Shown here one piece after another: positions 38,602 through 64,000 of a stretch of DNA of 64,000 nucleotides. Below the pieces are notes generated by a model. It did no database searches. It was not told the DNA's origin and was given only the letters and a program-made list of their open reading frames with translations. Source of the stretch: a virus; the IMG/VR virus record IMGVR_UViG_3300027759_000046, positions 1 through 64,000 of that record. One strand, 5' to 3'. The position numbers were made by a program, and so were the translations under genes. The stretch's first letter is position 1; each line of letters starts with the position of its first letter.

Positions 38602-38610
38602 AATAAATAA
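38602..38610 (+). promoter_or_regulatory. Late promoter-like box AATAAATAA
   Basis: The plus strand reads TAATAAATAACC, 24 bases before the ATG at 38635, immediately after the nrdA terminator. It would drive the two cargo-like genes that follow. Confidence 0.65.
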
Positions 38611-38634: not shown

Positions 38635-39183
38635 ATGAGAATATTAGAATTTAAAGAATTCAGAAGACTATTATTGGAGGACGATCCTGCTCCAGCGCCA
38701 GATGCAGCAGCAGCTCCACCTCCACCGCCGCCGGCTGACCCAGCCGCAGCAATGCCACCTCCACCAATGGATATGGGCATGCCAGGCGCATTACCGCCTG
38801 ACCCAAACGCAGCACCAGCTGGTCCAACTGCTCCAACTGGCCTAAAATTCATTTTTATCCAGGATGCAGAGAATAAAAAATGGCACGGGTCTCACAACGA
38901 AGATGGCGGAACCAAAAGATTTACTCAATACGAAGTAACTCCAGACGAGCTAACTAAATGGTTAGAAGCTCACAAACTTGACAAAGATAAGGATCTAGTC
39001 TTAGCTGCATTAGCCGGAAGACGCCCAATGCCCGAAACAGTTTACTCAACTTTTAAGAAAGAGGTAATTGATGGCGATTTGGGATCTGATAAAGGAACTC
39101 TAGACATTAAATTTGATTCAGGTGATAATTTCAGCCACCCATCAACGTCTGATCTAGAAGTAGTATTTTTAAAATCTAAATAA
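38635..39183 (+). CDS. Pro/Ala-rich protein with capsid-targeting-like N-terminus
   Basis: The 182-aa protein begins MRILEFKEFRRLLLEDD. This is a short helix ending in Glu like the T4 capsid-targeting sequence MKTYQEFIAE, which the prohead protease cuts after Glu. Residues ~18-65 are a Pro/Ala linker (runs of PAP, AAA and PPPP). The C-terminal ~115 residues form a compact mixed domain with no recognised family (GLKFIFIQDAENKKWHGSHN, later DLEVVFLKSK). It follows a late-type box, and its stop overlaps the start of the next gene by one base, so the two are coupled. I infer a protein packaged inside the capsid; the function is unknown. Confidence 0.65.
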   Translation: MRILEFKEFRRLLLEDDPAPAPDAAAAPPPPPPADPAAAMPPPPMDMGMPGALPPDPNAAPAGPTAPTGLKFIFIQDAENKKWHGSHNEDGGTKRFTQYEVTPDELTKWLEAHKLDKDKDLVLAALAGRRPMPETVYSTFKKEVIDGDLGSDKGTLDIKFDSGDNFSHPSTSDLEVVFLKSK

Positions 39184-39887
39184 TGCAAAAGTTTAAGCAT
39201 TTCATATACGAGTCAAAGTTTGATTCGTTTTCAAATATTATTGCCGAAGAGATCCTTGAGATTGTCAAAGGCAGTACTACGAGCAAACGAACAATAACCC
39301 GTGATTTGAATTACGATGAGCCGGTCTCATTCTTCTTAACCTTAAGTATTACCCGATCAAAAACATTTTCTCCAGCCAAGAGCAAGAATTTCAAGAGTCT
39401 TCCTTGGGAAACTATCAATTTTGAAAGACGCGGCTTTGTAATAGATGCAAACTCCTACATTCCAGGAAATGATGAAGAACCTGAGATTGAAATGTTTATC
39501 GTAATTAGCCCAGAGGCTGAGCCGACCTGCTATCAAACTCTATATTTTAAAATCTTAGATATTATTCGCCACGAGATGGAGCACCTACTTCAAAAAGGCG
39601 CAAACCGACAAGCAGGTCATGCTGTTACAACAAGACAAAAGACTCGCACTGCCGCTGAAGAATCTTACGAATATTTTTTGCTACCTGATGAAATTCCATC
39701 AATGGTCTCGGGTATGCATTTAGCCGCGGCAAAAAAGAGAATTCCAATCGACGCAGAATTTGAGGACTACTTATTACCATTTATTAAATCCGGTTTTATA
39801 ACTCAAGCAGAAGCGGATAAAGTTATTAGTGTATGGTTAGACTTTGCAAGAAAGCACTTTCCAAATACAAAAGTAGGAATTAATTGA
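39183..39887 (+). CDS. Putative zinc metallopeptidase with capsid-targeting-like N-terminus
   Basis: The 234-aa protein has a classical HExxH motif (His130, Glu131, His134 in IIRHEMEHLLQ). A glutamate-rich helix about 35 residues later (TAAEESYEYFLLPDE) could supply the third ligand. Its N-terminus MQKFKHFIYE followed by Ser closely resembles the T4 IPIII signal MKTYQEFIAE followed by Ala, so it is a candidate virion-packaged protein cut on maturation. It is translationally coupled to the preceding gene (TAATG overlap), which has a similar N-terminus and a late-type box. If packaged and injected, it could cleave a host protein early in infection. Peptidase activity is predicted from the motif only. 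Confidence 0.65.
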   Translation: MQKFKHFIYESKFDSFSNIIAEEILEIVKGSTTSKRTITRDLNYDEPVSFFLTLSITRSKTFSPAKSKNFKSLPWETINFERRGFVIDANSYIPGNDEEPEIEMFIVISPEAEPTCYQTLYFKILDIIRHEMEHLLQKGANRQAGHAVTTRQKTRTAAEESYEYFLLPDEIPSMVSGMHLAAAKKRIPIDAEFEDYLLPFIKSGFITQAEADKVISVWLDFARKHFPNTKVGIN

Positions 39888-39965
39888 TATTCTGAATAAT
39901 ATTTACCACATTATTTAAAACCGGGTGAGACTCGGTAATATAAGATACAAAAAACTGATTAAATT

Positions 39966-40157
39966 ATGAATCCACAATGGTTAGAAGATCTTAAAGCTGC
40001 AATGAGTCAGTTAGAAGCTGAAACAAGCAAATTCTACGAAAAGGGTAACAAATCAGCAGGAACACGCGCTCGTAAATCTTTACAAGATATCAAAGCTTTG
40101 TGTCAAGCAGGTCGTACTCACATTCAAGAGTCTAAAGTTGAAGCTCCTAAAGCTTAA
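39966..40157 (+). CDS. Histone H1 (Hc1)-like DNA-binding protein
   Basis: The 63-aa protein matches the short Hc1-type family. It has a helical start (NPQWLEDLKAAMSQLEAETS), the conserved block FYEKGNKSAGTRARKSLQDIK (residues ~24-44), and a second helix ending in QESKVEAPKA. Such proteins are abundant small nucleoid-associated factors in Bacteroidota and Chlamydiae. The basic Arg/Lys face probably binds DNA. It lies between the metallopeptidase gene and a terminator, upstream of gp32. It may compact phage DNA or imitate a host nucleoid protein. The family call is firm; the role is inferred. Confidence 0.8.
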   Translation: MNPQWLEDLKAAMSQLEAETSKFYEKGNKSAGTRARKSLQDIKALCQAGRTHIQESKVEAPKA

Positions 40158-40181
40158 TACAAGATCACACGAATTATCATT

Positions 40182-40214
40182 AAGGGCAAAGTTTTTAAAA
40201 CTTTGCCCTTTTTT
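40182..40214 (+). terminator. Rho-independent terminator after the Hc1-like gene
   Basis: AAGGGCAAAGTTTT pairs with AAAACTTTGCCCTT and is followed by TTTTT. It separates the Hc1-like gene from gp32. Confidence 0.85.
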
Positions 40215-40234
40215 ATTGAAACTCCACCAACTTT

Positions 40235-40248
40235 TTTAGTACAATTTA
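40235..40248 (+). promoter_or_regulatory. Possible early/middle promoter element TTTAGTACAATTTA
   Basis: It lies 29 bases before the gp32 start, directly after a terminator, where a new promoter is expected. It shares TTTAGTAYAAT with elements before other replication genes. Confidence 0.35.
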
Positions 40249-40277
40249 TAAGTAAACATTAAAAATCATAAAGAACA

Positions 40278-41321
40278 ATGGAAGATCTATTCAATCTCAA
40301 TCCAGATGATTTCTCAGGTAAATCATCTTCTGCCGCCCGCAAGACGGACGACAACATCTACAATCCAGGCCCAGACCAAGGCCAAAATGGAATCTACAAA
40401 TCGGTAATCCGTTTTATTCCATGGGTAGGAGACCCATCAAAGAGCAAGTACAAAAAGTACGCTGCTAAATTAGTTAACCCATTAACGAATGAGCGTCTAA
40501 TCGTAGACTGTCCATCAACTAATGGAGGACCTTCAATTCTTTGGTCTCTTGACTTAGAATTGAAAAAATTAGCAAACGAAGAGCCAACTGTAGTTGAAGA
40601 AATTCGCAAGTATTTCAATCGTTACTACAATTACTACTCTTGCGTTTACATCAAGAAAGATCCTCAATTCCCAGCGAATGAAGGCAAAATCAAAGTTTAT
40701 TCTTACGGATACACTATTGACAACTTGATCCAACAAGAGATCAATCCAGAAGCAGAGTTAGTTACGACTCAGAAAATCAATCCATTCTCTTTGACGCAAG
40801 GAAAAGATTTCGTATTGGTGATCAAGCGTAAAACAAAAGCATGGAGAGATTTTAGCTCAAGCAAATTCATGAGCGAAGTAAGTCCATTAATCATCACTCA
40901 CAATGGCAAAGAAATCCCAGTATCAAATGATCCAAAAGTAATGGGATTTGTGTCTGAATATTTCAAAAAGAATTCACCAGACTTAAGTCAATACTTCTAC
41001 AAAGAATGGACAGATGCAGAATACGAAAAAGTTGCAGAGTTTATCAAAGCAATCGTTCCGTACAAGCAAATCATTGATAACTTGGTTAGCAACTTGAAAG
41101 ATGAGAAAATGAAGAAATACTTCACTAACTCTAAACCAGTTTCTCGCACAGTTGCACCGGCCGGCGAAGACTTAGAGTTTACTCCAGCTCCAGCTCAAAC
41201 CAAAAGTGCAAGCGTATCAGTTGACTTAGACATGGATTTCGATTCTACGCCAGCTCCTGCTCCAGCTAAGGCTGCTGCAAAACCGGCTGATGACTTAGAC
41301 GATCTTTTTGCAGACCTTTAA
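40278..41321 (+). CDS. 32: gp32-like single-stranded DNA-binding protein
   Basis: The 347-aa protein resembles T4 gp32 across the core. YKSVIRFIPW matches the T4 QAVIRFLPS strand, and DPQFPANEGKIKVYSYG matches the T4 DPAAPENEGKVFKYRFG. The C-terminal tail is acidic and ends DDLDDLFADL, like T4 LDDLLNDL; that tail recruits replication proteins. A Pro/Ala linker precedes it. Only the first zinc-site cysteine is kept (Cys78 in VDCPST). The T4 CPVC pair and the histidine are absent, so the zinc ribbon seems lost. It coats ssDNA during replication and recombination. It begins the replication operon that continues through RNase H and GroES. Confidence 0.88.
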   Translation: MEDLFNLNPDDFSGKSSSAARKTDDNIYNPGPDQGQNGIYKSVIRFIPWVGDPSKSKYKKYAAKLVNPLTNERLIVDCPSTNGGPSILWSLDLELKKLANEEPTVVEEIRKYFNRYYNYYSCVYIKKDPQFPANEGKIKVYSYGYTIDNLIQQEINPEAELVTTQKINPFSLTQGKDFVLVIKRKTKAWRDFSSSKFMSEVSPLIITHNGKEIPVSNDPKVMGFVSEYFKKNSPDLSQYFYKEWTDAEYEKVAEFIKAIVPYKQIIDNLVSNLKDEKMKKYFTNSKPVSRTVAPAGEDLEFTPAPAQTKSASVSVDLDMDFDSTPAPAPAKAAAKPADDLDDLFADL

Positions 41322-41336
41322 AAATAACTGAATATC

Positions 41337-41651
41337 ATGTCAGAAAACACAGAACAAATAACCGAGATTGAAGACGTTGCTCAACAAGAGGCAATCGCTG
41401 AACCGAAACCGCCAATGGCAACATTGTTAGGCTCAATCAGCTACGAGAACCATAAAGATTACGAAAATTTTCTTAATGGCTTAACTCTTGAGCACGCTGC
41501 AATCGTGCTAATCTCAGCGGCAAATTACGCTCACACAAAGGGTGCATTTTCGCTGGATGAGTCTGAGCTAATTGCGAAAGCAATCAAGCGAATGACAACG
41601 AAGCCTGAGAACGACTCAGCTTCGAATACTGAACCTCAAACTGAGCAATAA
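41337..41651 (+). CDS. Small acidic protein, unknown
   Basis: The 104-aa protein has acidic, disordered ends and a helical middle (ENHKDYENFLNGLTLEHAAI to LIAKAIKRMTT). It is not recognised. It is 15 bases after gp32 and 2 bases before the RNase H gene, so it is in the same operon. In T4 the neighbours of gene 32 are genes 33 and 59, but no sequence likeness to either is seen. A small replication or transcription accessory protein is possible by position. Confidence 0.7.
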   Translation: MSENTEQITEIEDVAQQEAIAEPKPPMATLLGSISYENHKDYENFLNGLTLEHAAIVLISAANYAHTKGAFSLDESELIAKAIKRMTTKPENDSASNTEPQTEQ

Positions 41652-41653
41652 AA

Positions 41654-42766
41654 ATGAATATAGTAATCGACGGTAATGCTTTTCTAAACGTTGCGACAAG
41701 TATCGTTAAGAACATCCTCTCTGCAGATAAGCGTATCGGCGAGAAATACTATGTGTCAGATTTATTATCAGATGAAGAATTCATTCTCAAACAGGCAAGC
41801 AAAGATGCTTTTAGATCGTTCTCTCTGAATTATTTAGGAAGCATCTTTGCACCGTTTAAGGATAACATTACGTCAGTATTTTTTGTATTCGACTCTAAGA
41901 GCTGGAGAAAGAAATTTATCAAAGAACATTTTGCGGAGCACGGTGAAGGCGACTTCAGCTACAAAGGCCAACGTAAGTATGATGACAAAATCTATCTGTT
42001 TTTTGATTATTTCCAAAATGATATTCTTCCCACTCTAACTGACGAATACGGTATTCTAGCAAACCGAGTACAAGGAGCCGAGGGCGATGACCTAATTGCT
42101 TACATCTGCGAAAATCTTAAAGAAGATATCTGCATCTGGTCAGTTGATAAAGATTTAACTCAATTACTAGAGAGCCGTGACCGTAAAGTTATTCTGCTAA
42201 TGCCTAAACAGCAAACCAAATTTAAAAAGGTTTACACAACAGAAGATTTCGATTCTCAGCCAGTTCAACCGGATATTGACCTATTTAATTTTGAAATGGG
42301 ATCGATAGACAACTCAACGGTTGCAAATGTTATCAATGATCTAGTTAAAAAAGACTATCAACATTTTAAGATAGATCCAGCACTAGACGTCTTAACTAAA
42401 GTAATTGCAGGTGATCAATCTGACAATATTCCAAGATCTCATCCTAAACTAACTGCATCAAAGGTAACTAGAGTAATTGAGTTAATGAGAGAACGTGCAG
42501 ACTGGCCGTCTATTAAATATCTAATAGACCAGAATGATTCTGGGTTCATGGAAGCATTGAATGATGTAATATGTGAAGTGCTAAAGATAAGTGATTCTGG
42601 TGAAAGCCTGACGATCAGAAACAACCTAAGCCGTAATCGTACAATAATTCGATTAAGCACAGCGGTATTTCCACAGGAAATCACAGAGGCTATTGCAAAC
42701 TCCGTTAAACTTGAAAACCGTAGACGTTTTAACTATTTTAAATTTAAAAAAACATATAAGAGCTAA
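41654..42766 (+). CDS. rnh: RNase H / FEN-1-family 5'-3' exonuclease
   Basis: The 370-aa protein follows the T4 RNase H plan (5' nuclease, FEN-1 superfamily). It has VIDGNAF, FVFDSKSW, YKGQRKYDDKIY, the acidic GAEGDDLIAYI and SVDKDLTQL, and GDQSDNIP, which together provide the metal-binding carboxylates and the helix-hairpin region. It removes RNA primers from lagging-strand fragments. It is somewhat longer than T4 RNase H (305 aa). Its stop overlaps the groES start (TAATG), so the two are coupled, and it sits in the gp32 operon as expected for its partner. Confidence 0.9.
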   Translation: MNIVIDGNAFLNVATSIVKNILSADKRIGEKYYVSDLLSDEEFILKQASKDAFRSFSLNYLGSIFAPFKDNITSVFFVFDSKSWRKKFIKEHFAEHGEGDFSYKGQRKYDDKIYLFFDYFQNDILPTLTDEYGILANRVQGAEGDDLIAYICENLKEDICIWSVDKDLTQLLESRDRKVILLMPKQQTKFKKVYTTEDFDSQPVQPDIDLFNFEMGSIDNSTVANVINDLVKKDYQHFKIDPALDVLTKVIAGDQSDNIPRSHPKLTASKVTRVIELMRERADWPSIKYLIDQNDSGFMEALNDVICEVLKISDSGESLTIRNNLSRNRTIIRLSTAVFPQEITEAIANSVKLENRRRFNYFKFKKTYKS

Positions 42767-43092
42767 TGAGCGAAAATAAAGAATTTACACCGTTATTCGA
42801 AAGAGTCCTAATTAAGCCGGACAGTGTCGAAACCAAAACAGAGACAGGCATCATCTTACCAGTTGAGTCCCGTAAACGTCCAAATACAGGCATTGTTATT
42901 TCGCTAGGTCACCTAGTTTCAGATAACTCAAAATGCCCAGTAAAAGAAGGCGACCGCGTTTTATACCAGAGATACTCTGGCTTAGATGTGAAAGTAAATG
43001 GCGAAGCGCATCATTTAGTTATGGCCAACGATTTAGTTGGAATTATAAATAATAATGCAAATAGCACAATTGAAATCGCAGACTATGCTTAA
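42766..43092 (+). CDS. groES: GroES-like co-chaperonin (Cpn10)
   Basis: The 108-aa protein shows the Cpn10 pattern: FTPLFERVLIKPDSVETKTE, TGIILP as the edge of the mobile loop, NTGIVISLG, VKEGDRVLYQRYSG and ANDLVGII. The mobile loop (around residues 19-35) that binds GroEL is present. It caps the GroEL ring; T4 encodes a GroES analogue (gp31) for capsid folding, but here the phage has both partners. It is coupled to the RNase H stop and overlaps the HAD gene start by 8 bases. It is far from groEL (about 13.6 kb), unlike in bacterial operons. Confidence 0.88.
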   Translation: MSENKEFTPLFERVLIKPDSVETKTETGIILPVESRKRPNTGIVISLGHLVSDNSKCPVKEGDRVLYQRYSGLDVKVNGEAHHLVMANDLVGIINNNANSTIEIADYA

Positions 43093-43660
43093 GAAATTCT
43101 CACAATTCATTAATGAAAAACGCGGCGGAACTAAACAGATCTTCTGTGATCTAGACGGAGTTATCGTTGATTTCAATCGAGGTTTTAAAAACATTGAAGC
43201 AAACGACGATAAGCTGACTCCTGAAAAATACAATGACAAGCACGGTAAGCATTCCATGTGGAAAATTGTAGATCCGGAAGGCGAAAAGTTTTGGGCAAGA
43301 TTAAAGTGGATGAAAGATGGTAGAGAGTTATGGGATTACCTATCTCAATATGACCCAATCATTCTGTCTTCACCTAGTCGTAGCAAACACTCAATTCCAG
43401 GTAAAATGGAATGGATTAAGAGAAATCTTGGAATAAATCAAGCCAAACCAACTACATCAGCATCAGATTGGGATCCAGCTAGTCGAATCATCTTAAGTTC
43501 AGACAAATTCAAATTTGCAAGATCCAAAGACGATATCCTAATTGACGATACTCGTGCTAAGTTGGACAAATGGACAGCCGCTGGTGGAACAGGTATATTC
43601 CACAACGATGCAACTGATACAATTCGAGTTCTCGAGGAAATCTTTACGAAAAACGATTAA
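43085..43660 (+). CDS. HAD-family phosphatase (5'(3')-nucleotidase-like) with capsid-targeting-like N-terminus
   Basis: The ATG at 43085 is chosen over one at 43055 because it gives an N-terminus MLKKFSQFINEK like the other capsid-targeting-type proteins and a short 8-base overlap with groES. The product is 191 aa. HAD motif I is CDLDGVIVDF (Asp22, Asp24), motif II is ILSSPS (~93-98), and motif IV is LIDDTRAKL (Asp154, Asp155). The small cap and size fit deoxyribonucleotidase-like HAD proteins. It may dephosphorylate nucleotides. The N-terminal signal suggests it may be packaged, or that the sequence is coincidental; no late-type box is seen upstream. A bidirectional terminator follows. Confidence 0.75.
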   Translation: MLKKFSQFINEKRGGTKQIFCDLDGVIVDFNRGFKNIEANDDKLTPEKYNDKHGKHSMWKIVDPEGEKFWARLKWMKDGRELWDYLSQYDPIILSSPSRSKHSIPGKMEWIKRNLGINQAKPTTSASDWDPASRIILSSDKFKFARSKDDILIDDTRAKLDKWTAAGGTGIFHNDATDTIRVLEEIFTKND

Positions 43661-59551: not shown

Positions 59552-60157
59552 TTAAGCTCCTTCTTCAGTATTCTCTTCTTCACCTTCTTCGCCTTCTTCC
59601 TCTTCTTTGCACATTTTTTCAATTGCTGCACATAATAGGTCGCAAACTTCTTCTTTTTCGATTTCCATTTTCTCGCAAATGTCATCAATTAAATCTTGAA
59701 GATCGTCTCCGAATTCTTCCATTAATTTTTCCAATTGCTCCTCGTCTACTTCGTATCCAAGGTCTACATTTTCATCATCTTCTAAAGGTTCTTCAGCTTC
59801 GTTAAATTCATAGTTTTCATTTACGAATTCTTGGTATCTTGCGATCTTTCCTTCTTCAACTGCATCAGTTGTTGCGATAGTTGGTTTAGCGTACATTTGT
59901 GTATAAGGTTTTTTCTTTGCTGTTTTATAAACGATATCGCTGGAAAATCCTTTCCAAGCAGAATCATAATTTGGGTTGAATCGGCCTCCTTCAGCATTAG
60001 GATCGCGCTCAACAACTCTTTGATATCCATCTAGAGATTTTCTCTTTGATTTATCGAAATCTTCTTTTTCAGAAGGACCACCGAACGCAGGTTTCTTTGG
60101 GTTTGTCCATCTTTCTAGAGAAGGATTATCTCTGCGTTTTACGTTAAACATGTCCAT
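59552..60157 (-). CDS. Acidic protein, possible prohead core component
   Basis: The 201-aa protein has a Lys/Arg-rich N-terminal half with many Pro, Asn and Asp (WTNPKKPAFGGPSEKEDFDK). Its C-terminal half is very acidic and helical (LEKLMEEFGDDLQDLIDDIC). At ~residues 105-116, KIARYQEFVNEN resembles the T4 capsid-targeting/gp21 cleavage signal, here internal. Acidic, cleavable core proteins are typical of T4-type proheads (compare gp67 and gp68). It lies downstream of the tail tube gene on the same strand. It is probably internal or scaffold; no family is recognised. Confidence 0.6.
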   Translation of the reverse strand: MDMFNVKRRDNPSLERWTNPKKPAFGGPSEKEDFDKSKRKSLDGYQRVVERDPNAEGGRFNPNYDSAWKGFSSDIVYKTAKKKPYTQMYAKPTIATTDAVEEGKIARYQEFVNENYEFNEAEEPLEDDENVDLGYEVDEEQLEKLMEEFGDDLQDLIDDICEKMEIEKEEVCDLLCAAIEKMCKEEEEGEEGEEENTEEGA

Positions 60158-60796: not shown

Positions 60797-60805
60797 TTAT
60801 TTATT
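60797..60805 (-). promoter_or_regulatory. Late promoter-like box AATAAATAA
   Basis: The minus strand reads GAATAAATAAAT, 19 bases before the tail tube ATG at 60777. Confidence 0.65.
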
Positions 60806-61729: not shown

Positions 61730-62233
61730 TTAGCCGATTTCTTTATCTCCGCGGAATTCTTTTCCACGATTTGCTTTTTTCTTATCTGGATCAACTGTTT
61801 TATAGTTAGCCCAAATTTCGTTGTAAATACGGCAAGATGCTCCCATGAAATTAACGATACCTACATATTTCTTGCGATCATCACCTTTCATTTTTGAAAT
61901 CTTCTTACCGATTGAACGAGCATCATCTAAATCAAGTTCTTCCTCGTCAGATTTTCCAACCAAGTCCTTAAGCGAATTTGCTTCGTACATATACGATTCA
62001 AACGTTGGATGCACGTGTGGTCCTCGTGGGCCCATTGGATCCAGGTCAATATCTTCTGATTCAATATCAGCAGATCCACCCATTCTTTTTATTTGAGCAA
62101 GGCCTTCTTCCTGAGAGTTTACTGGAATCAAAGTGTTTTGACCAACTACATAGTAGCCGTCTTCGCGCTCTTCAATTCTCAATGGTCCAGACAGATCGAA
62201 TTCCATGCCATCACTAAATTTAAGTTTTGACAT
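61730..62233 (-). CDS. Hypothetical head-associated protein with an internal cleavage-like site
   Basis: The 167-aa protein has a small N-terminal beta domain (KFSDGMEFDLSGPLRIEERE), an acidic linker, and at ~residues 76-87 PTFESYMYEANS. That segment resembles the T4 gp21 cleavage/capsid-targeting pattern (MKTYQEFIAE, cut after Glu). The C-terminal part is helical and basic (ISKMKGDDRKKYVGIVNFMG). Such a layout fits a prohead protein cut on maturation, leaving a basic C-terminal part. It lies 11 bases after the basic repeat protein gene. No family is recognised. Confidence 0.65.
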   Translation of the reverse strand: MSKLKFSDGMEFDLSGPLRIEEREDGYYVVGQNTLIPVNSQEEGLAQIKRMGGSADIESEDIDLDPMGPRGPHVHPTFESYMYEANSLKDLVGKSDEEELDLDDARSIGKKISKMKGDDRKKYVGIVNFMGASCRIYNEIWANYKTVDPDKKKANRGKEFRGDKEIG

Positions 62234-62244
62234 AGTTAACTGAT

Positions 62245-62604
62245 TTATTTAGGCATCTTTGCCATAGCTGGATCAACTTTCTTGTTGATAGCTTTACCTT
62301 TGATAACAAGCTTAGAGATCTTAGGATCAACTTCTTTCTTAGAAGCAGTTCCACGACCCTTAGGCATATCGGCCATTTCAGGTTTCACCATTTTATTAGA
62401 AGCAGAACCACGACCCTTAGGCATATCAGCCATTTCAGGTTTTACAGTTTTACTGATTGCTCTACCTTTTCCAACAGGAAGTGCAGACATCTCATCATCA
62501 ACTTGTTTTGTAATTCTTTTGCCTTTAGCTGGAGCGCCTTTAGCAAGATCTTGATTCGTTTTCTTTTCAAAAAGATACTCTTCGTAGCTTAAAACTGATT
62601 TCAT
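62245..62604 (-). CDS. Basic tandem-repeat protein with capsid-targeting-like N-terminus
   Basis: The 119-aa protein starts MKSVLSYEEYLFEKK, a signal like T4 MKTYQEFIAE. Then come about five ~19-residue repeats built as K-G-(K/R)-x-x-(S/N)-K-x-V-x-(P/D)-x-M-x-x-(L/M)-P. Two of them share MVKPEMADMPKGRG. The repeats are rich in Lys, Arg and Gly, which suggests DNA binding. This is what an internal capsid protein that helps pack DNA would look like (compare the T4 internal proteins). A late-type box lies 47 bases upstream, and the gene is the first one after the major capsid gene's terminator. Confidence 0.7.
   Translation of the reverse strand: MKSVLSYEEYLFEKKTNQDLAKGAPAKGKRITKQVDDEMSALPVGKGRAISKTVKPEMADMPKGRGSASNKMVKPEMADMPKGRGTASKKEVDPKISKLVIKGKAINKKVDPAMAKMPK
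62258..62527. repeat. Tandem repeats inside the basic internal-protein gene
   Basis: About five diverged ~57-bp units encode the K-G-x-x-x-K-x-V-x-P-x-M-x-x-x-P pattern. The two central units (about 62340-62455) are nearly identical, which suggests a recent duplication. Confidence 0.7.
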
Positions 62605-62651: not shown

Positions 62652-62660
62652 TTATTTATT
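62652..62660 (-). promoter_or_regulatory. Late promoter-like box AATAAATAA
   Basis: The minus strand reads CTAATAAATAACC, 47 bases before the ATG at 62604 and just past the terminator of the major capsid gene. Confidence 0.6.
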
Positions 62661-62730: not shown

Positions 62731-64000
62731 TTAAGCTGCGTATCCAGTTGAAGGAGCAACAGAACCAGTCAATACTCCTAGGCCAGTTACTTCCATAGTG
62801 ATGTATTGTGTTTCTGGGTGCCATCCAGCTTCCGTGATAGCATAACGAGATTTCATACCAATTTTCGGAGAGAAAGTACCCTCTGCAATTGTTTGAAGAC
62901 TCTCAGCCATGATATATGGAAGGAATTTAACACCTGGCTCTTCGTCAGCGCCTTTACGTCCGATGTGGATGCGGTTGTCGCTGAATTTCAAGTTAGGATC
63001 TACGTATACAGTTAAACCGTGTACTTTACCAGCTGGGTAAAGTTGACCAGGTCCTGAAGGAAGATCGTTATTGAATGGAGCAAAAGAGTAACCAGCAACG
63101 TCAGCAAGAGCTGAAGCTACACGGCCGTTAGTAACGATGTATGTACCAGCACCGAAACGACCTCTGTGATAAATCAAGTTAGCCATTTCAAGGATTTTAG
63201 TAACAACACGACGTTGTAGAGTTGAGATGTTTTCGAAACCTGAACCGATCGTAAGATCTAAGTTAACGATTCCAGCGCCTTCAACTGCTTCTAACGTAGT
63301 TTTATGAGTTTTACCTAAGTTAAATACTCTGTCAACTAATTTTTTGTTGATACCTTGTGCAAGTTCATTAACTGCTACGTTCTCTAACATAGAGATTACG
63401 TCGAAATTCCAAACTCGGTTAAGATCTTGGATTTGCTCAACAGTTGCAGAGATTGCTACTTGGTCTCCTTTTGCCTCAATGAATTTCGTAAACATACGAA
63501 GACCCATTTGACGGAATTTAGAAGCTTCAGCAACTTCACGAGTCATACCGTCGTAGTTAACTTGAGAACCAGTAGAACCTAAGAAAGGACCATCGAAATC
63601 AACGTCAGCTTCAGTTGTAGTTGAAGTGAAACCTGAAATGTGGTTTTCTAAAGCAGATACTAGAGCTGCAGTTTGAGTAGTCAAAGACTTAGTGTAAGCG
63701 TGAGAAGCACCATTAACTGTAATAGTTGTGAAAGTTTCACCGTTAGTTACGAAATCATTGATTGTCTTAGTCTCATCGCCAGTTGTGTTAACTACTTTAA
63801 ACATAGCTACTCCATCAATACGTGAGAATCCGATGAATGATAAGTTCAATACGTCTCCACCACCTAAATCGATCTTAGAAGTATCACCAGCTACGAAAGA
63901 AGCTAGAGTACCTGTAGAAAGAGTAGTAGTTTTAACGAAACCGTTGATTTTGATTACGAAAGGCTCGTATTGTTTGTCAACGTTACCACCTTGGTATACG
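62731..64000 (-). CDS. 23: Major capsid protein (gp23-like), N-terminus cut by the right edge
   Basis: The minus-strand frame stays open to the right edge; 423 codons are visible. A TTG at 63849 is internal, because in-frame coding (VYQGGNVDKQYEPFVIKING) continues to the edge. The protein resembles T4 gp23: FNNDLPSGPGQLYPAGKVHG, then HIGRKGADEEPGVKFLPYIM and IGMKSRYAITEAGWHPETQY match the T4 C-terminal region, ending in GLGVLTGSVAPS. It forms the capsid lattice and is probably the client of the phage chaperonin. The gp21-type cleavage site would lie in the missing N-terminus. A strong terminator follows. Confidence 0.85.
   Translation of the reverse strand, partial: VYQGGNVDKQYEPFVIKINGFVKTTTLSTGTLASFVAGDTSKIDLGGGDVLNLSFIGFSRIDGVAMFKVVNTTGDETKTINDFVTNGETFTTITVNGASHAYTKSLTTQTAALVSALENHISGFTSTTTEADVDFDGPFLGSTGSQVNYDGMTREVAEASKFRQMGLRMFTKFIEAKGDQVAISATVEQIQDLNRVWNFDVISMLENVAVNELAQGINKKLVDRVFNLGKTHKTTLEAVEGAGIVNLDLTIGSGFENISTLQRRVVTKILEMANLIYHRGRFGAGTYIVTNGRVASALADVAGYSFAPFNNDLPSGPGQLYPAGKVHGLTVYVDPNLKFSDNRIHIGRKGADEEPGVKFLPYIMAESLQTIAEGTFSPKIGMKSRYAITEAGWHPETQYITMEVTGLGVLTGSVAPSTGYAA

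Follow-up and report, generated by a model that had tools for sequence, protein, structure and literature searches.

The occurrence of similar short peptides, each ending in glutamate, on several proteins encoded in one stretch of a T4-like viral genome raised the question of what these peptides are for. The window analysed here, bases 1-64000, is the first quarter of a 253,137-base record from an uncultured virus of bacteria, and the remainder was covered in overlapping stretches. Gene calling relied on a simple longest-ORF procedure, and some start codons are uncertain. A preliminary description had named six such motifs and proposed that their bearers form a capsid-targeted set of proteins for delivery into the host; all six were located at the genes to which it had assigned them.

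Two of these motifs open neighbouring genes on the forward strand. A proline-rich protein of 182 residues (38635-39183) begins with the off-pattern variant tag MRILEFKEFRRLLLE (38635..38679); two distant orthologues have a canonical tag (YFSNYIAE and YFSNYISE) and another has a looser form. The 234-residue HExxH protein that follows (39183-39887) bears the tag MQKFKHFIYE (39183..39212), which 13 of the 14 distinct N-termini among its orthologues retain, with bodies diverging down to about 30% identity and H130, E131 and H134 invariant. Its structure model (mean pLDDT 89.6) scores below 50 for residues 1-7, has a confident fold from about residue 12, and places the tag outside that fold. The HExxH protein has no family assignment, a PDB fold search returned nothing and a search of a viral library yielded a single homologue, full-length and uncharacterised. 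Between this peptidase-like gene and the next one, positions 39966-40157 encode an untagged 63-residue histone H1-like Hc1 protein (PF07432, E = 1.9e-17). Further along the same strand, a HAD 5'-nucleotidase-like protein (43085-43660; phrog_2643, E = 4.7e-24) carries the tag MLKKFSQFINE (43085..43117), kept in 9 of 9 distinct orthologue N-termini. Although an ATG at 43055 was given as the start of the gene, its orthologues align from 43085, so that the tag is most likely the true N-terminus of the protein.

The other three motifs lie on the reverse strand. The 201-residue protein encoded at 59552-60157, with a basic first half and an acidic tail, contains YQEFVNE internally (59816..59836), and about 30 orthologues keep this motif as [RF][FY]..F[VIL]NE. 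FESYMYE (61982..62002, within 61730-62233) had also been described as internal, which is correct for this genome but not for many relatives without the preceding domain, where the motif is N-terminal or nearly so. Downstream of gp23, a basic repeat protein (62245-62604) starts with MKSVLSYEEYLFE (62566..62604), a tag kept in 21 of 21 distinct orthologue N-termini, this count, like those for the other genes, being of related sequences and not of independent events.

The preliminary description had called for a search of the rest of the genome, and the motif does recur there, on a larger scale than first reported. The strict pattern [FYW]xx[FYW][ILMV]xE, starting within the first 10 residues, is present in 22 of 307 proteins genome-wide, against a mean of 0.48 and a maximum of 4 in 300 shuffles of the N-terminal 32 residues, a compositional null model. 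Its rate per position at N-termini is about 17 times the rate elsewhere in the same proteins (binomial P ~3e-20 for the N-terminal excess). Relaxing the spacing by up to four residues gives 31 tagged proteins, one of them a spurious gp23 match, against 1.13 in shuffles. From these searches, the number of proteins that appear to bear the T4-like tag while being otherwise unrelated is about 25 to 35. A second recurrent N-terminus, MK[HY][ILV]KL[FY]E[ND], is found at genome positions 120410, 164031, 165391, 168861, 172943 and 212986 and is possibly a variant tag; the wider LFE variant MKHxKLFE[NDE][FWY], which occurs more often than expected in two genomes (4 vs 0.27 and 7 vs 0.32), was excluded from the tag counts.

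Similar excesses were obtained for two near relatives among public viral contigs (252,618 and 270,136 bases), with 15 of 281 and 19 of 313 proteins tagged (0.35 and 0.48 in shuffles), for more distant relatives with 4 of 153 and 7 of 154 strict tags (0.23), and for LR756500, a more distant 462-kb phage, with 22 of 625 (1.4). Elsewhere the strict pattern was matched three times in KVP40, twice in Syn9 and three times in T4, and the same search gave none in phiKZ, Tenacibaculum phage pT24 or Flavobacterium phage MaF61. Few relatives came from scanning viral_contigs with one tagged protein at a time, and the records already collected were searched instead; a search with another tagged protein gave one. 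Orthologues retain the tag while their bodies diverge to about 30% identity; some vary or lose it (one peptidase, and orthologues of 191693 and 157015), and many tagged bodies are missing from relatives.

The anatomy of the tag can be compared with that of the first ten residues of T4 IPIII, in which residues 4 and 7 are the main determinants of targeting and residues 8 and 10 those of processing (PMC9026906). Aligned on their glutamate, the tags have four fixed positions that correspond to IPIII 4, 7, 8 and 10; they are N-terminal peptides of 10-19 residues with the targeting and processing residues of IPIII, as is expected of a capsid targeting sequence (CTS). In three window families, column entropy is 0 to 1.4 bits for the four fixed columns and 1.4 to 2.9 for most other tag columns, and Gln or Glu is also favoured just before the second aromatic. 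Within T4 itself, two of the three strict matches are the annotated IpII and IpIII, and a slightly wider pattern has its sole match on gp23 at FGSFLTE (residues 59-65), the end (E65) of a propeptide known to be 65 residues long (PMC9026906). A pattern derived from this phage thus finds experimentally known T4 cases.

The preliminary description had also asked for a gp21 protease, and a protease of this type was found beside the capsid gene. The major capsid protein gp23 is encoded on the reverse strand at 62731..64000 and on to genome position 64410 (PF07068, E = 1.8e-35). In its N-terminal region an [LIV]xE near residue 53 is nearly invariant among about 60 relatives, which fits the same cleavage rule as the tags, and the gp23 propeptide is probably cut after SLNE at this residue, in the part that lies beyond the window. 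Directly upstream of gp23 and just past the window, on the same strand (genome 64429-66411), a 660-residue protein is predicted to join a prohead protease and a scaffold-like region in one chain. Its first third matches PF03420 (5.3e-8) and phrog_207 (3.8e-37), both gp21-type (S77), and the same search also recovers T4 gene 21; H84, S139, S140 and D161 of the protease are invariant across 19 sequences. A later part carries a 14-residue repeat, present about 11 times, with the core YxxY[LVI][AGS]E; about 50 genomes or viral contigs conserve it. The repeats are similar to the tag, and the majority agree with the cleavage rule; in some copies the glutamate is changed to another residue, and not all can therefore be cut. 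The resemblance suggests that the tags may imitate a scaffold repeat. The structure model of the fused protein is poor, and helical repeats are thus unproven.

The tagged genes also have an upstream element in common. The late promoter of T4 is TATAAATA, to which the octamer ATAAATAA is close. ATAAATAA itself came out of a screen of this genome for enriched words, and the two relatives served as a check. It stands about 27 nt upstream of 16 of 32 tagged genes vs 44 of 255 untagged ones (p = 9e-5), and is likewise enriched upstream of tagged genes in the two relatives (p = 4e-7 and 1e-3); when only genes with an intergenic gap are considered, the pooled value is p = 3e-8, which is optimistic since orthologues were pooled. 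The exact T4 sequence TATAAATA is not enriched upstream of tagged genes. Late-promoter-like boxes in the window precede the 38635-39887 gene pair (38603..38610, forward strand), the HAD gene, at 40 nt from its start at 43085 (43045..43052, forward strand), and the basic repeat gene 62245-62604 (62652..62659, reverse strand), and a further one is found at 60797. Among untagged genes, the protease-scaffold gene and genes of the tail module also have the box. ATAAATAA is probably the late promoter of this lineage, placed before virion and tagged genes, and the tagged genes look late.

The putative cargo encoded outside the window includes a nucleotidyltransferase-like protein (genome 157896), a T4-lysozyme-like enzyme (171610), a CHAP protein (205353) and a weak metalloprotease match (196311), all tagged, together with a VanY/M15 peptidase and a peptidoglycan-binding protein that have relaxed tags (203186 and 202819). 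Family searches with the tagged proteins gave no match for most of them, and no cargo matched a T4 internal protein. Several are predicted peptidoglycan hydrolases, and enzymes of that kind do not have to act as effectors in the cytoplasm. The tagged lysozyme-like protein (genome 171610-172434) and the protein at 204439-205356 have a common G[LA]GTDEESLV segment near the N-terminus, recalling annexin repeats. A 510-residue protein (genome 83003-84535, reverse strand) has tag-like sequences at both ends, FKHLEDLLAEA at its N-terminus and ILEFSDFLKQNNNQ at its C-terminus. Separately, two small proteins (genome 79045-79449 and 80251-80694) have signal-peptide-like N-termini (MKKL...FSQ and MKKLIL...SAGAQ) in a style common in Bacteroidota, which gives a hint of the host.

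We consider it very probable that the motifs form an expanded capsid targeting system of the T4 type with diverse cargo. In such a system, the two aromatics of the N-terminal tag would bind the scaffold core of the prohead, and the tagged protein would be enclosed while the capsid forms. The gp21-type protease, made fused to the scaffold-like region, would then cut after [ILV]-x-Glu and free the cargo inside the head, and the freed proteins would be ejected into the host along with the DNA. The parts of this scheme differ in strength. Of what the preliminary description had proposed, targeting with removal of the tag by a gp21-type protease is now strongly supported by the four CTS positions, the S77 protease next to gp23, the [LIV]xE rule at the probable gp23 cut site, the conservation of tags among orthologues and the common late-promoter-like box. 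Homology with T4 makes packaging and cleavage of the tagged proteins a well-supported expectation; that the scaffold repeats serve as docking partner or model for the tag is a weaker reading of the repeat sequences, and delivery of the cargo into the host, for which T4 provides the precedent, we regard as evenly balanced. The orthologues with a variant tag or none count against the scheme, as do the scaffold repeats that cannot be cut, the poor model of the protease-scaffold protein and the cell-wall hydrolases, which would be odd contents for a head.

The most serious alternative retains the recruitment of tagged proteins to the assembling head but makes most of them core, size-determining, assembly or lysis proteins, which would be consumed or retained and not delivered. 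The T4 protease also acts on core proteins and IPIII affects head assembly (PMC9026906); in the present genome, the small basic protein encoded beside gp23 has a tag and the acidic 59552 protein has one internally, and the tagged peptidoglycan hydrolases could serve lysis. Against it, the tagged bodies are diverse, include many enzymes and are often absent from relatives, which is a better fit to accessory cargo. We hold this alternative to be a substantial possibility, if a rather doubtful one.

Explanations that dispense with the head fare worse. The tag could direct proteins elsewhere, for instance to the tail, to the membrane or to a replication compartment, and owe its likeness to T4 to convergence of short amphipathic helices, as its length and amphipathic character and the presence of cell-wall hydrolases among its bearers would allow. 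However, the fixed glutamate and the aliphatic residue at P3 match protease processing, the probable gp23 site obeys the same rule, the same core recurs in the protease-scaffold protein, and the tail-module genes with the late box have no strict tag; we find this reading improbable. Far less credible still is that the motifs arose by chance or by common ancestry of one tagged protein family. Phage N-termini are often rich in Met and Lys and single short motifs do recur by chance, but shuffles give 0.5 tagged proteins where 22 are observed, which rejects chance or composition, and the same search in other phages gives 0 to 3; common descent is rejected by the tagged bodies which, trimmed of the tag, show no convincing similarity to one another. 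In this, as in the relatives of 61730-62233 and the model of the 39183 protein, the tag behaves like a module.

If capsid targeting is the function of the tag, the virus particle may carry a large enzyme set into the next host cell. Packaged or injected proteins are normally identified only when particles can be cultured and analysed by proteomics; should a short and recognisable tag mark the cargo, sequence would reveal what many uncultured huge phages package. Candidate counter-defence and takeover proteins without assigned function could then be listed, and phage heads could be loaded with the help of new natural tags. More tentatively, and with slightly less than even confidence, we propose that in a clade of huge T4-like phages a modular capsid address serves as a platform for delivery in general: interchangeable enzymes, two to three dozen of them and with cell-wall hydrolases and peptidases among them, would be loaded into the head and ejected into the host, the address perhaps deriving from a repeat of the phage's own protease-scaffold protein.

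Capsid targeting sequences of T4 were reportedly described by Mullaney and Black in 1996. In T4 the CTS of IPI, IPII, IPIII and Alt are processed by gp21 (PMC9026906). The tags described here are like them in being short N-terminal peptides ending in glutamate, with aromatics at both targeting positions and an aliphatic residue and glutamate at the processing positions, and in being accompanied by a gp21-family protease and an adjoining gp23-type capsid gene. Unlike T4, with its handful of tagged proteins, this genome has about 25-35, the cargo is predicted to be enzymatic and is mostly unfamiliar, Trp and Tyr also occur at the second aromatic, and the protease is fused to a scaffold-like region with tag-like 14-residue repeats. 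T4 internal proteins are ejected, IPI acting against GmrSD and IPIII against an unknown system (PMC9026906, PMC9391042); they are the class of cargo that such a tag delivers in T4, whereas the putative cargo here has predicted enzymatic activities and matched no T4 internal protein in the family searches. In phiKZ and SPN3US, ejected head proteins have N-terminal propeptides, mostly longer than 100 residues, that are cut after glutamate at A-x-E or S-x-E by a related prohead protease (PMC5694885). The likeness is that N-terminal propeptides ending at glutamate mark a group of head proteins; the tags here are short, with [ILV]-x-E, and accompany a gp23-family capsid protein, and phiKZ has no such tags, so that a long propeptide of the phiKZ/SPN3US type was rejected. 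We found no description of such an expanded tagged set in the literature covered, which was largely without subscription papers and preprints, and a review suggests that T4-like phages can package a variety of proteins by means of the CTS (PMC9026906). The principle is thus already known, and what is new is its scale, its cargo and the tag-like repeats of the scaffold.
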